This document shows positions 1,423-35,089 of a stretch of 64,000 nt of DNA, in pieces. The DNA comes from Clostridia bacterium (GTDB lineage Bacteria > Bacillota > Clostridia > Christensenellales > Christensenellaceae). The notes under the pieces are model-generated. The model saw only the letters and a program-made list of their open reading frames with translations, had not been told where the DNA came from and ran no database searches. Location: the NCBI GenBank assembly GCA_017439085.1, contig JAFRTU010000020.1:1-64000 (forward strand). The letters are read 5' to 3'. Every line of letters begins with the position of its first letter. Positions within the stretch are counted from its first letter, which is position 1. The translations under genes and the position numbers were made by a program.

Positions 1423-2331
1423 TTATTTCTTGCCTGCGAGCTCTTTCAGTTCATCAAGAGTCGATGCCTTCTTTGAATAGAGGGTCAGAGGAGCACATGC
1501 TGTATCGCCGATGTCTATTATGTCATATCCCTGGGAATCTATCTCAGACTGGAGATATGCCTTATGCTGGAAAGAGTTGAGATCGATCTCTCCGCTGTTC
1601 AGAGCCTCGTTAGGGAGGTTGTATGCATCGAATATGACGATTTCAAGATAGAGCCCGGAATTCGTCTCATCAAGTACCTTCTGAACTGCTCTGAAAGTAT
1701 CGCCGGAGCCGCATACTCCTATTTTGATGACTTTCTTTCCATCGGGGGAAGACTGATAGCCTTCGATCTCCGATACGAAATTGTCATCTACAGAGTAATC
1801 GGGGTCATAGATAAATGCCGGAACGGAGGCTCCTTTGCTCTTTTCTATGGTATACTGGGCAACCAGCTGGCTTTGATAAGCCTCCACGACTTTTTTGTAA
1901 TCGGGGTTGTCCTTATCTGCCGTTCTTGCGACAATGACATTTATGAACGGGTTGTCAGAACCGACCTCCTGGACCTCTGTTATGAGGCCGTCCTTAGCCG
2001 GGATCAGACCTGCAGGAACAGCGTATGTTCCGTTTATGGTGGATGCTCCGTAGTCGTCAAGAGTTGCAACTAAAGTATTGGCTGCAGCAGGGACTATCTC
2101 GATATTGTAGATATACTTCGTTATGTCCTTGAGTTCAGGAGTGTATCCTGCAGCCTCATCAACTTCTATGAGACCTGCTGTCTTGAGTAGGGTTATAGCC
2201 CTGGCCTGGTTGGTAGCATCGCTGGGGACGCCTATCTTCAGGGGCTCAGTTTCCTTCTTGCCGCATGCTGCGGAGGAAATCAGGAAGATCAGTGCAATAA
2301 CGATCAATAATACCTTTGTAGCTTTTTTCAT
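1423..2331 (-). CDS. metQ: MetQ, methionine ABC transporter substrate-binding lipoprotein
   Basis: Extracytoplasmic binding protein of the methionine uptake (MUT) ABC family, 302 residues. A signal peptide ends in the lipobox ISSAAC, so Cys23 should be lipidated and anchor the protein to the membrane. The mature part opens with LKIGVPSDATNQARA, typical of the NlpA/MetQ family. It is the last gene of metN-metI-metQ, 27 bases after metI. The ligand may be L-Met, D-Met or a derivative; the family includes all of these and sequence alone does not decide. Confidence 0.93.
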   Translation of the reverse strand: MKKATKVLLIVIALIFLISSAACGKKETEPLKIGVPSDATNQARAITLLKTAGLIEVDEAAGYTPELKDITKYIYNIEIVPAAANTLVATLDDYGASTINGTYAVPAGLIPAKDGLITEVQEVGSDNPFINVIVARTADKDNPDYKKVVEAYQSQLVAQYTIEKSKGASVPAFIYDPDYSVDDNFVSEIEGYQSSPDGKKVIKIGVCGSGDTFRAVQKVLDETNSGLYLEIVIFDAYNLPNEALNSGEIDLNSFQHKAYLQSEIDSQGYDIIDIGDTACAPLTLYSKKASTLDELKELAGKK

Positions 2332-2357: not shown

Positions 2358-3056
2358 TTATTTCTGAAACAGTTTTTTGTTCGTGGTCTTCCTTGCAAGC
2401 GTATTTCCGATCACCTGTATCACGGAAACTATTATGAGAAGGAGAATGACACACACGTTCACTATGTCTGAATAGTGCATGTTCTGACCATAGTTTATGG
2501 CGAAACTTCCAAGTCCTCCGGCGCCTACGGCACCTGCTGCCGTTGTGAGTCCTATAATGGAGATAGCAGTTATGGTGATGACTCTTATAAGATCAGGAAG
2601 GGCTTCCTTCAGGTATACCCTGAATATGATCCCCGGGATACCGCTTCCCATGGCTCTTGCTGCTTCGACTTTTCCGGGGTCTACTGCAGAGAGAGCACTT
2701 TCGACCTGTCTTGTAAAAAAGGGAACAGCTCCGAATACCAGAGGGACTATGGCCCCTTTAACTCCTATGGAAGTTCCTACAAGCGTTCTGGTGAACGGGA
2801 TGAGGAATATGAGGAGTATTATGAACGGTATCGATCTGAAGATGTTGGTTATGATCTCAAGCACCGAATGTATGAATTTGTTCGGCTTGATTCCGTCCGG
2901 CCTCGTTATCACCAGTAATATTCCGAACAGGCCTCCGAGAAGCAGCGTGATCGCTCCTGCTATGAAGAACATCTGGAATGTTGCTGACAGGCTTTCGAGA
3001 AATCTGTCCGAGTAGTTCATGAAGTTCGGAATCAGTTTGTATAGCAGTTCTTTCAT
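2358..3056 (-). CDS. metI: MetI, methionine ABC transporter permease
   Basis: Integral membrane permease of 232 residues with several hydrophobic segments and the ABC-permease EAA-loop region (EAARAMGSGIPGIIFRVYL). Its ATG overlaps the metN stop by four bases, indicating translational coupling. It forms the channel of the MetNIQ importer. Confidence 0.94.
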   Translation of the reverse strand: MKELLYKLIPNFMNYSDRFLESLSATFQMFFIAGAITLLLGGLFGILLVITRPDGIKPNKFIHSVLEIITNIFRSIPFIILLIFLIPFTRTLVGTSIGVKGAIVPLVFGAVPFFTRQVESALSAVDPGKVEAARAMGSGIPGIIFRVYLKEALPDLIRVITITAISIIGLTTAAGAVGAGGLGSFAINYGQNMHYSDIVNVCVILLLIIVSVIQVIGNTLARKTTNKKLFQK

Positions 3057-4132
3057 CTTTCTATTGCCTCCACTCTTACTCCGTTTGAAGCTATGTATTC
3101 CAGTGCTTCTCTGACTTTATCCGGGTCACCGCTTATGTCAGCGATTATACCTCCGAGAGCATTCTCGGCAACTATGTCCACGTTGGCTAGCACTATGCTG
3201 ATGTCCACGTTGTAGTCTCTTGATACTTTTGAGATAAGGGCTTCTCCGACCGAGTCCTTTGTGAAGGTCAGTTTGATGAGCCTCTGGGAAGCATTGTTCG
3301 ACAGTTCAATGGTCCTGCTCTCTATGAGTTTGTTTATCTTTTCCAGTCCGGATGAGGATTCCACGAACCTCTTTGTGATGTTGGCCTGGGGATTTGAGAA
3401 GACCTCGTACACTTCTCCTTCTTCCACGACTTTTCCGTCTTCCATCACAGCCACTCTGTCGGCTATCTGCTTAATGACCGCCATCTCGTGGGTGATTATG
3501 ACTATCGTGAGTCCAAGCTTTCTGTTGAGATCCTTCAGAAGCTTCAGGATTGATTCGGTGGCATCAGGGTCGAGAGCTGAAGTTGCCTCATCTGAGAGGA
3601 GTATCTTCGGGTCATTTGCCAGAGCCCTCGCTATTGCGACTCTCTGCTTCTGACCTCCCGACAGCTGGCTCGGATATGAATCTCTCTTCTCGGAGAGATC
3701 TACAAGTGCAAGCAGGTTGTCGACCTTTTCTGTTATCTCTTCTTTGGAGAGCCCTGTGTATTTCAGAGGATATGCGACATTGTCGAATACTGTACTCCGG
3801 TCGAGAAGGTTGAAGAGCTGGAAGATCATTCCTATGGACCTTCTCAGCTTTCGGAGATCTTTCTCTTTGAGCCTGGTCCTGTTTTCTCCGTCCACTTTGT
3901 AAAGAACTCCGTTCTCGCTCGTTATGGTCCCGAAGTCCTTAATGCTTATGGAACCGCTGTCCGGATACTCGAGGAAGTTTATGCATCTTACGAGGGTGCT
4001 CTTACCTGCTCCTGAATATCCTATGATACCGTATATCTCTCCGTCTCCTATATTGATGGATACGTCGTTTACGGCATGTACGTTAGCCTCTTTTGAAACG
4101 AAATGTTTCTGGAGGTTAGAGATATTGATCAT
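3053..4132 (-). CDS. metN: MetN, methionine ABC transporter ATP-binding protein
   Basis: ATPase of the methionine importer, 359 residues. Walker A is GYSGAGKST, the signature is LSGGQKQR and Walker B is ILLSDEATSALD. The C-terminal region after about residue 265 fits the NIL domain that binds methionine and inhibits transport when the cytoplasmic pool is full. ATG 4132 is preferred because AAGGAGG lies 7 bases upstream; a TTG at 4135 is also in frame. Expression is probably governed by the attenuator immediately upstream, so the transporter would be under both transcriptional and allosteric methionine control. Confidence 0.95.
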   Translation of the reverse strand: MINISNLQKHFVSKEANVHAVNDVSINIGDGEIYGIIGYSGAGKSTLVRCINFLEYPDSGSISIKDFGTITSENGVLYKVDGENRTRLKEKDLRKLRRSIGMIFQLFNLLDRSTVFDNVAYPLKYTGLSKEEITEKVDNLLALVDLSEKRDSYPSQLSGGQKQRVAIARALANDPKILLSDEATSALDPDATESILKLLKDLNRKLGLTIVIITHEMAVIKQIADRVAVMEDGKVVEEGEVYEVFSNPQANITKRFVESSSGLEKINKLIESRTIELSNNASQRLIKLTFTKDSVGEALISKVSRDYNVDISIVLANVDIVAENALGGIIADISGDPDKVREALEYIASNGVRVEAIER

Positions 4133-4153: not shown

Positions 4154-4183
4154 AAAAAAAAAGGGAAGCGCTTGGCTTCCCGG
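4154..4183 (-). terminator. Attenuator terminator in the metNIQ leader
   Basis: On the minus strand GGGAAGC-CAAGC-GCTTCCC (4181-4163) is followed by nine T residues (4162-4154). It lies between the leader peptide stop and the metN ribosome binding site. Its 5' side, CCGGGAA (4183-4177), can instead pair with TTTCCGG inside the leader reading frame (4232-4226), one G-U pair included, which would serve as antiterminator. Confidence 0.8.
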
Positions 4184-4200
4184 TACTTTTTTGACAATAC

Positions 4201-4281
4201 TCAATATGAGCAGTATCGACAAAGTCCGGAAACAGCTCTGCACATGCGCATCATCATATCATTTTCTTTCCGGATAGTCAT
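4201..4281 (-). CDS. Met/Cys-rich leader peptide of the metNIQ operon (26 aa)
   Basis: A short reading frame read directly on the minus strand. It has an AAAGGAGC ribosome binding site 7 bases before its ATG and ends in TGA at 4201. The peptide contains MMMRMC at residues 9-14 and LCRYC at residues 20-24, so 8 of 26 residues are Met or Cys. A Rho-independent terminator starts 18 bases after the stop, and codons 17-19 (GTT TCC GGA) complement the terminator 5' arm. This is the arrangement of a ribosome-mediated attenuator: stalling on Met codons would free codons 17-19 to form the antiterminator. Function is inferred; no SAM riboswitch or T-box motif is present here. Confidence 0.75.
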   Translation of the reverse strand: MTIRKENDMMMRMCRAVSGLCRYCSY

Positions 4282-4296
4282 CTTTCTGCTCCTTTC

Positions 4297-4377: not shown

Positions 4378-5306
4378 ATCCCTCTCTTGGAGTCCTCGAT
4401 GTTCTTCTTGAGTTCTTCTATATAGTTGAGGGCTATGTCCGACAGCATGGAATGAGATTTTACTATGTATCCTATCTCCATGGTCACATTTGGGTTATTG
4501 GGATCAGCCTGATAGGGAATGGCTACATAGTCTTCTCCGTTCAGTTCCTGACAGATGAAACCCGAGCACAGAGTGTATCCGTTGAGACCTCTCATTAGAT
4601 TCAGCATCGTCGCACGGTCATTCACCTTTATGGTCTGGGGATAATCGTTCTCTGCCAGGATCTCCTCGTTAAGGTAGAATGAACTGTTCTCTCCCTGATC
4701 GAAACTCATGTTCGGATAACTTGTCAGTTCTTCATAGGAAATGGAACTGTTCTTTGCCAGAGGATGTTCCCGATAGAGATAAACGAAGGCATTTGCCTTG
4801 GTGAGCTCGGTGAACTTCAGATTTCTCTCAGCGAACAGCTTCTCAAGATATTTCCTGTTGTAATCGCACAGAAAGAGTATGCCGACTTCACTTATCGAGT
4901 TTCCGACATCATTTATAACGTCCATAGTCCTCGTTTCACTGATCTCGAGGTCATATTTGCCGGTCCCGTATTTTTTGACTGTCTCCACGAAAGCCTTGGT
5001 GGCAAAAGAATAGTGCTGTGCTGAGACCTTGAACTTCTGCTTTATGCTGTTTTTGTCAGAATACTTGTCCTTAAGGAGCTCATACTGCTGGTATATCTGT
5101 CTGGCCTGAAGGAGGAAATCTTTTCCCTCGTTGGTGAGGATGACTCCCTGGTTCGTGCGGTTAAAGAGCTTGATCCCAAGCTCATCCTCAAGGGAATGGA
5201 TCGCACTCGTAAGAGTCGGCTGAGAAATGTATAACTTCTCAGCCGCCTTGTTCATCGATCTTGATTCGGACACTACGAGAGTGTAATGGATCTGCTGCAA
5301 TGTCAT
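4374..5306 (-). CDS. LysR family transcriptional regulator
   Basis: A 310-residue protein with an N-terminal winged helix-turn-helix (residues 1-60; MNKAAEKLYISQPTLTSAI is the recognition region) and a C-terminal effector-binding domain. Its ATG overlaps the stop of the M20 amidohydrolase gene by four bases, so the two are translationally coupled. It lies directly upstream of the metNIQ transcription unit, and a matching dyad stands before both promoters. The likely inducer is a sulfur amino acid or an acylated form of one, inferred only from the neighbours. Confidence 0.92.
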   Translation of the reverse strand: MTLQQIHYTLVVSESRSMNKAAEKLYISQPTLTSAIHSLEDELGIKLFNRTNQGVILTNEGKDFLLQARQIYQQYELLKDKYSDKNSIKQKFKVSAQHYSFATKAFVETVKKYGTGKYDLEISETRTMDVINDVGNSISEVGILFLCDYNRKYLEKLFAERNLKFTELTKANAFVYLYREHPLAKNSSISYEELTSYPNMSFDQGENSSFYLNEEILAENDYPQTIKVNDRATMLNLMRGLNGYTLCSGFICQELNGEDYVAIPYQADPNNPNVTMEIGYIVKSHSMLSDIALNYIEELKKNIEDSKRGI

Positions 5307-6514
5307 AGAGGCATTTCCTTCTGGTGCTCAAGGTGCCACTTATGGTCTTCCTTCACCTTTTTGAGCAGCTCAGGATCTTCAAACAGGTCGAGTGCGGTAA
5401 ATGCGAGCACCTTTGCTCCAAGGCCTATGGATGCAAGGCCTTTCTCACTCTTTGCAGCGTTGCACATGTCTATGGAGTGCCCTGCGATCTTTTTATCCGA
5501 TATTGAGATGTGGGGCTGTATCGTCGGGATCTTCTGGGAAACATTTCCGACATCACTGGATCCCGGTGAAACTGTATCCGGCTTATGGGTGATCTTCTCT
5601 CCGAAGAGCTCAAGGTTCTTTTCATAAAGAGCGTCCAGGGAAGGAGTGAGGACCATGTTCTCCACCAGATTCTGATATAGTTTCATGGAACCTGTGCATC
5701 CCGTCTGAAGTGCGGCTCCTTCTACTATCTTCTCCACTTTTCCATACAGTTCATGGAGAGTATCGATATCGGCAGCCCTTATATAGTATTTGGATTTGGT
5801 ATAGTCAGGGATGACGTTTGGAGCGGTACCGCCCTCTACGATTATCCCATGTATCCTTATCCTGTTGGTAAGCTGCTGGCGGAGCACTCCTATGGCTTCA
5901 TATGTGAGTATCTGAGCATCGAGGGCATTTATGCCGTCCTCCGGATCTCCTGCAGCATGGGCTGACTTACCATGGAATTCGATATCAACAGGAGCACATG
6001 CATAGTTTCTGGAACTGAGTCCGTGTTCGGGAGATCCGCCCGGATGTACGCACAGTGCAAAATCAACGTCCTTGAAGTAGCCCTTGTTGGCAAAGGAACC
6101 CTTGGCGCTTCCTTCCTCGCCGCCTTCCTCTCCCGGGGTACCATAGACTCTTACTTCTCCGCCGATCTCATCACATACAGATTTCAGTGCGGCTCCGGCA
6201 AGGGAACTCGTAGCTCCGAATATGTTGTGTCCGCATCCGTGACCAAGGCCTGCAAGGGCATCATATTCCGCCAGGAATGCGACCGTGGGGCCCGGCTTTC
6301 CGGACTTATAGTAAGCAGCAAATCCCGTCCTGTGGCCGGCTGCATTCAGTTCTATCTCAAAACCTTCCTTTTCAAGCTGTTTTGAAAGCGTCTCGCATGC
6401 AAAGAATTCATAGTTGGAGACTTCGGGCTTGCTGTGAATTGCAAGAGCTATATCCTGATATGTCTTCAATGAAGAATCAACGAATGCCTTTATCTTTTCT
6501 CTCAGATCGCTCAT
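5303..6514 (-). CDS. M20 family amidohydrolase/metallopeptidase
   Basis: A dinuclear-metal amidohydrolase of 403 residues resembling N-acyl-amino-acid and aminobenzoyl-glutamate hydrolases. Metal-binding signatures include AEYDALAGLGHGCGHN and the GEEGGEEGSAKG segment; a dimerisation domain follows. Start at ATG 6514, with GGAGG 8 bases upstream; the in-frame TTG at 6520 has only 2 bases of spacing. First gene of a two-gene operon with the LysR regulator. Next to a methionine transporter, a plausible role is freeing an amino acid from an N-acyl or peptide form after uptake. In Bacillus subtilis M20 deacetylases take part in N-acetylcysteine scavenging, but the substrate here is unknown. Confidence 0.9.
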   Translation of the reverse strand: MSDLREKIKAFVDSSLKTYQDIALAIHSKPEVSNYEFFACETLSKQLEKEGFEIELNAAGHRTGFAAYYKSGKPGPTVAFLAEYDALAGLGHGCGHNIFGATSSLAGAALKSVCDEIGGEVRVYGTPGEEGGEEGSAKGSFANKGYFKDVDFALCVHPGGSPEHGLSSRNYACAPVDIEFHGKSAHAAGDPEDGINALDAQILTYEAIGVLRQQLTNRIRIHGIIVEGGTAPNVIPDYTKSKYYIRAADIDTLHELYGKVEKIVEGAALQTGCTGSMKLYQNLVENMVLTPSLDALYEKNLELFGEKITHKPDTVSPGSSDVGNVSQKIPTIQPHISISDKKIAGHSIDMCNAAKSEKGLASIGLGAKVLAFTALDLFEDPELLKKVKEDHKWHLEHQKEMPL

Positions 6515-6556
6515 GTTCAAATCCTCCGTTCGATTTTCAAAAATGTGGATGGGTAT

Positions 6557-34812: not shown

Positions 34813-35089
34813 AATTTCATAAGAAAAAGGCGCAGATAAAGACAGTCTCTCATATGAAAGCATTATAGAGAAGCATCGGCTGGTGGAAGATGTGAATGCA
34901 GGTATGGGAGAGAATCACTTTGGAGCCAAGATCCAGAAAGGCAACGAGTAAGGAGCAACGTTTGGTCCCGTTAGAGACCCTAGAGCTTAATCCATATTCA
35001 TTATGGTTGGGTGCTTTTAAATGTGCGCCAATTTGGGTGGTACCGCGGAATAATTTTCGTCCCTGTCATGTGACAGGGACGTTTTTTTT
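34813..35089 (+). promoter_or_regulatory. T-box leader, specifier read as ATC (isoleucine)
   Basis: It contains the bulge TGGTACCGCGG (35038-35048), the stem I apical GGCTGGTGGAA, and a perfect terminator CGTCCCTGTCA-TG-TGACAGGGACG (35058-35081) with eight T residues. Stem I pairs TCTCTCATA (34846-34854) with TATGGGAGA (34903-34911). The next bases are GA-ATC-ACTTTGG, so the codon followed by a purine is ATC (34914-34916). The glyS leader read the same way gives GGA, which is correct for that gene. Downstream lie the XRE-cupin, acyl-CoA synthetase and isoaspartyl dipeptidase genes. Confidence 0.85.

Follow-up and report, generated by a model that had tools for sequence, protein, structure and literature searches.

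How the metNIQ methionine uptake operon is controlled was the question raised by a short intergenic region in a 64,000-nucleotide stretch of clostridial DNA (the window). The usual account of methionine control in Bacillota invokes SAM riboswitches or T-boxes. The operon lies on the minus strand and comprises metN (3053..4132), encoding a methionine ABC transporter ATPase with a NIL domain (TIGR02314, 2.2e-114; PF09383, 1e-19), metI, encoding a permease (2358..3056; NF008049, 1.4e-55), and metQ, encoding a substrate-binding lipoprotein with swapped halves (1423..2331; PF03180, 1.2e-56, in two stretches). The scores of metN and metI were below the NCBIfam curated cut-offs, but the best matches were still MetN, MetI and MetQ. 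The metN gene starts with ATG at 4132 behind the Shine-Dalgarno sequence AAGGAGG.

Between a LysR-type gene (5306-4374, minus strand) and metN lies an open reading frame (ORF) of 26 codons plus TGA, MTIRKENDMMMRMCRAVSGLCRYCSY (4201..4281, minus strand; ATG at 4281, TGA at 4203-4201). It is preceded by the Shine-Dalgarno sequence AAAGGAG (4289..4295, minus strand) and carries Met at codons 9, 10, 11 and 13 (ATG ATG ATG CGC ATG; 4243..4257, minus strand). An intrinsic terminator, GGGAAGC-CAAGC-GCTTCCC followed by nine T residues, is located downstream at 4154..4181 on the same strand. The original prediction had interpreted this arrangement as a Met/Cys leader peptide that controls metNIQ by ribosome-mediated attenuation. 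The frame, its ribosome binding site and MMMRMC at residues 9-14 were confirmed base for base, and the terminator ahead of metN was likewise found at 4181-4154. A scan for terminator-like sites returned two, one on each strand, compared with 0.3 expected. The Met run alone was a modest signal, because 6 of the 376 short ORFs in the window with a Shine-Dalgarno sequence also had at least three Met in eight codons; the fold is a stronger signal, and the comparison with relatives (below) is overwhelming. The leader peptide matched no Pfam family; a single PHROG match (E 0.018) was disregarded. An inverted repeat, TTAAAGTA-TACT-TACTTTAA (about 4308-4289, minus strand), lies immediately 5' of the Shine-Dalgarno sequence and is a possible operator, perhaps for the adjacent upstream LysR-type protein, or a possible 5' hairpin.

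Four segments of the minus-strand leader RNA, termed regions 1 to 4, can pair in alternative ways. Region 1 (UCCGGAAA, codons 3-5, 4267..4274) and region 2 (UUUCCGGACUUU, codons 17-21, 4221..4232) form a protector hairpin, in which UCCGGAAA (4274-4267) makes eight perfect pairs with UUUCCGGA (4232-4225, codons 17-19) and the Met codons are in the loop. This 1:2 helix had been overlooked in the original prediction, which had only 2:3 and 3:4. Region 3 (AAAGUACCGGGAA, 4177..4189) pairs either with region 2 as an antiterminator or, through GGGAAGC, with region 4 as the terminator. The predicted 7-bp pairing between TTTCCGG (4232-4226) and CCGGGAA (4183-4177) was present and was in fact longer, joining UUUCCGGACUUU (4232-4221) to AAAGUACCGGGAA (4189-4177). 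Folding of the leader RNA that spans the start codon and the terminator gave 1:2 together with 3:4 (-37.8 kcal/mol, z -3.95, 0 of 200 shuffles). When region 1 was removed, the RNA from codon 13 onward folded as 2:3 with no terminator (-30.1 kcal/mol, z -4.14, 0 of 200 shuffles). The helices 1:2, 2:3 and 3:4 of the window leader are mutually exclusive and constitute a classical attenuator switch.

A search at E 1e-80 detected a metN gene of the window type in 2 of the family's 18 genomes. The sole other such genome, from the same genus, was uncultured Clostridiales bacterium isolate RUG12779 (L014), whose leader is 83% identical and encodes MFVWKERPMMMCMCRAVSGLCRYCSD. The Shine-Dalgarno sequence, the Met run, regions 2 and 3 and the terminator are retained, the inverted repeat is nearly kept, and the N-terminal codons and spacers diverge freely. 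Codons 13-25 differ by a single base in region 2, where CTG replaces CTT synonymously; the base that pairs with it in region 3 is also altered, giving G-U in place of U-A, and this is the one compensating change for the subtype of the window. In a comparison of these two leaders the 1:2 helix was weaker in L014, with a G-U pair retained, and the L014 leader folded preferentially as 2:3. Conservation of the C-terminal residues RAVSGLCRYCS would be set by the antiterminator hairpin and not by amino-acid sensing; LCRYC is RNA structure encoded in peptide-coding sequence. Over the organism's own genome CRYC gave 24 matches and the reversed pattern 25, a background count, so LCRYC is not a genome-wide motif.

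The distribution of such leaders was determined for the order to which the window belongs. NIL-domain matches in 93 of 396 genomes led to 81 metN loci, and a leader was scored when a short ORF with a Shine-Dalgarno sequence and at least three Met in eight codons lay no more than 380 bases upstream of metN. Met leaders were present in 40 of the 81 upstream regions, while dinucleotide shuffles predicted 0.65; reverse complements and metN coding DNA gave 0. When the same clustering test was applied to the other 19 amino acids in these 81 regions, none was comparable to Met. The 41 leaders, including that of the window, represent nine families and 19 genera. Median values were 26 codons for the length, codon 8 for the beginning of the Met cluster and 181 bases for the distance from the start to metN. 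The Met cluster was the universal feature: Met made up 19.2% of the residues versus 4.8% expected, and the peptide sequence varied freely across the order except at the Met codons and the pairing segments. A terminator was detected in 39 of the 41 leaders. A simple test gave a significant 2:3 duplex in only 17 of 39 leaders; subgroups beyond the 18 leaders described below pair otherwise.

Several loci deserve separate mention. In L082, metN is preceded by a tandem of complete attenuators, at distances of about 363 and 200 bases; each has a Met leader, a CCCGAGC/GCTCGGG antiterminator and a terminator. Outside the survey, Met leaders were seen in L018, L025 and L036 (Clostridia or Clostridiales records). 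In L019, a record from the Synergistaceae, a leader rich in Met and Cys, MQSSFFGAHARMCMLMCRDACTERCRMSGKEI, lies 326 bases before metN and is followed by terminator-like hairpins; it is perhaps an independent case outside the order. Loci of the order whose metN has no Met leader (e.g. L110, L112, L115, L117 and L119) showed strong hairpins with T runs ahead of the gene and no Rfam match. Of the 85 matches to the Met-run pattern ATGATGNNNATG in the organism's own genome, 30 were inspected, and none was convincing as a second Met leader.

Eighteen leaders form a subgroup in which the sequence of region 2 is CCCGAGC, CCCGGGC or a near variant and its translation is a recurrent Arg-Ala. Their region 3, GCTCGGG or a near variant, forms the 5' arm of the terminator. 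The flanking pairs differ among these leaders; GAAGT with ACTTC, AAAAGC with GCTTTT, and ACGC with GCGT are examples. The mean 2:3 duplex energy in this subgroup was -20.1 kcal/mol for cognate and -15.9 kcal/mol for non-cognate combinations, and none of 20,000 permutations reached the cognate value. The cognate advantage persisted with the conserved core removed and after near-identical members were dropped. In an alignment of 15 members the 2:3 core was paired in 98.1% of the cells, compared with 6-50% when the segments were slid, and contained two double changes; 3:4 was paired in 97.5% of the cells, seven of which were double-change cells. M-x-M was invariant in this alignment, with a variable middle residue. 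None of the aligned sequences had kept the hairpins and lost the Met run, the outcome by which the original prediction would have been refuted. Cys was missing from 8 of the 41 leaders. All matches to a covariance model of the CCCGAGC subgroup were metN leaders that the set contained already, one per genome; the model did not reach the subtype of the window.

The effect of ribosome position was modelled with a 30-nucleotide mask, the readout being the sequestration of region 3. Equilibrium folding of the full transcript discriminated poorly and was replaced by folding before the 3' arm of the terminator (region 4) had been transcribed. For the window leader, sequestration was 0.88-0.91 when Met 9-11 occupied the A site and 0.47 when Met 13 did; across codons 12-24 the values were 0.32-0.66, and with no ribosome the value was 0.41. 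According to these values, stalls at Met 9-11 favour antitermination, while codons 12-24 or the absence of a ribosome favour termination. A ribosome on the stop codon gave 0.81 in this crude model. Over 44 leaders the Met positions exceeded the later codons (p 5e-4), and the difference between Met and stop was not significant (p 0.29). As the model does not separate the stop codon from the Met codons, the terminating state depends on ribosome release or on close coupling. When the full transcript was folded at equilibrium, many leaders preferred the terminator although a ribosome masked the Met codons, a preference that an attenuator would have to overcome kinetically.

The leader is very probably a methionine-specific transcription attenuator of the trp type acting on metNIQ; its parts can be read from sequence and folding, and we infer that it is translated, that ribosomes stall on it and that readthrough depends on starvation. 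The attenuation proposed originally gained support from the three-hairpin anatomy, from the relative with 83% identity, in which the Met run, 2:3 and 3:4 are retained, and from about 40 further leaders. With charged elongator tRNA-Met in good supply, the ribosome would pass the Met codons and either cover region 2 or let it re-pair with region 1. With region 2 occupied, region 3 would be free for region 4, and transcription would end at the terminator before metN. When Met is scarce, a ribosome stalled at codons 9-11 would cover region 1 (ORF nucleotides 8-15) and not region 2 (nucleotides 50-61). The exposed region 2 would then pair with region 3, the terminator would be blocked and the uptake operon would be transcribed. 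If the leader is not translated, 1:2 would form and termination would be the default. As Met is also the initiator amino acid, starvation should stall elongation, which switches the operon on, yet slow initiation, which switches it off. The latter is a counterpoint to the attenuator, as slowed initiation under Met starvation would favour termination.

The original prediction had named both sulfur amino acids, and a leader at which stalling at either Met or Cys activates the operon would agree with the presence of Cys in 33 of the 41 leaders, in some of them within the Met cluster. The metL peptide of Streptomyces lividans likewise mixes Met and Cys (PMC8079986). Cys amounted, however, to 9.5% of the residues, with 8.4% expected from dinucleotide composition, and was not concentrated near the Met run. 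'Met/Cys' should therefore read 'Met', given that Cys is at the composition level and is absent from some leaders. In the model, stalls of the window leader at Cys 14, 21 or 24 reduced the sequestration of region 3, and with Cys 21 or 24 as the stall site the ribosome is predicted to lie over region 2, so that dual sensing appears improbable. Still less credible is an arrest peptide like TnaC or ErmCL, which would stall its own ribosome on a ligand instead of responding to Met starvation. The C-terminal half is strongly conserved between the two leaders of the same genus, which speaks for such a peptide, but this conservation is accounted for by the RNA pairing, and across the order the free variation of the peptide between the fixed elements speaks against it.

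A metabolite-binding riboswitch or a tRNA-sensing element overlapping an ORF by chance has precedents among relatives of metN. Rfam identified a T-box ahead of metN at four further loci of the order, and T-box-like and SAM-I-like sequences were recognized by eye at metN loci found elsewhere by protein similarity, so RNA control of metN is common. In the wider phylum, the 30 metN loci with the best scores, a sample ordered by score and not random, included none with a Met leader, and about half matched a crude SAM-I motif. At the leader itself and at the loci of 20 relatives there was no Rfam match at the gathering threshold, including the SAM-I riboswitch model (RF00162), and over the window and 60 relatives' loci nothing was found before leader-bearing genes at this threshold. 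The T-box model (RF00230) did not match upstream of the window metN; its sole match in the window is a T-box leader at 34824-35067 on the plus strand. What the leaders have in common is Met codons and alternative pairing, not a conserved aptamer, and this explanation is therefore very unlikely. The hairpin at 4154..4181 could also be a plain terminator of the upstream LysR gene next to a chance ORF, with metN transcribed from elsewhere. No clear promoter for the leader was found in a search, and Met-rich short ORFs do occur elsewhere in the window. The frequency of such ORFs before the metN genes of the order, far above the 0.65 expected, and the conservation and covariation of leader, region 2 and terminator leave this reading hardly any probability.

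Ribosome-mediated attenuation of this kind is already known from the trp, his, thr, leu, ilv and phe leaders of Proteobacteria. The present leader resembles these in its short ORF behind a Shine-Dalgarno sequence, its run of control codons, its 1:2, 2:3 and 3:4 helices and its terminator before the structural genes. It differs in using Met as the control amino acid, in its uptake-system target and in its Bacillota host, and region 2 is located within the ORF, about six codons before the stop, whereas in the former it lies around or after the stop. SAM-I riboswitches and T-boxes likewise control metN at the RNA level in other Bacillota, but they sense SAM or uncharged tRNA directly, with no translation of an ORF. 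The one earlier listing of a Met-containing leader peptide ahead of metNIQ is metL of S. lividans, MSTTSDRTPATEATTTPGARCMCRRMCAF; it is actinobacterial and leaderless, its authors found no typical Rho-independent terminator, and the passages covered contain no worked-out alternative pairing (PMC8079986). Actinobacterial cys leaders have no conserved terminator hairpins (PMC1262725). In Bacillota, where T-boxes and riboswitches dominate, leader-peptide control is represented by his leader peptides in bacilli (PMC2965389) and by a Leu-rich ilv attenuator reported in Staphylococcus aureus (PMC5794164); these use His or branched-chain codons and precede other genes.

No description of Met leaders in Bacillota was found in the literature searched, in which subscription journals were thinly covered, and this is weak evidence of novelty. 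What appears to be new is that the Met attenuator is complete, that it is present in Bacillota and that it extends over at least nine families. Such an attenuator is probably the usual control of metNIQ throughout this order, whose Clostridia are largely uncultured; it would come in several structural subtypes, in one case with two in series, and would stand in for the SAM riboswitches and T-boxes customary in Bacillota. A class of Met leader peptides would add a control amino acid to the well-defined attenuators, and the initiator role of methionine sets a sharp question, as starvation pushes in both directions. The many subtypes would represent one sensing logic rebuilt from different RNA pairings. 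The RNA family is absent from the library and could enter annotation pipelines.

Two observations concern the genes of the operon and their neighbours. MetQ of the window (1423-2331, minus strand) is circularly permuted: the signal peptide is followed by the usual C-terminal half (PF03180 positions 99-236) and then by the usual N-terminal half. AlphaFold gave a pLDDT of 38 for this protein, with insufficient alignment depth. No paper on a natural MetQ permutation was found in the literature searched. The permuted form also occurs in L014, L055 and L015, the last being an Erysipelotrichaceae record whose leader is T-box-like, and the normal order was seen in L016-L023, L026-L028 and L030 and in the PDB alignments shown. 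A gene of the amidohydrolase/M20 type, assigned by a family-library test on the window copy only, repeatedly adjoins metNIQ (window 5303-6520, minus strand; L015 3094-4290; L055 1-770; L036 2455-3618). This neighbourhood suggests that an N-acyl amino acid or a peptide is taken up and hydrolysed.
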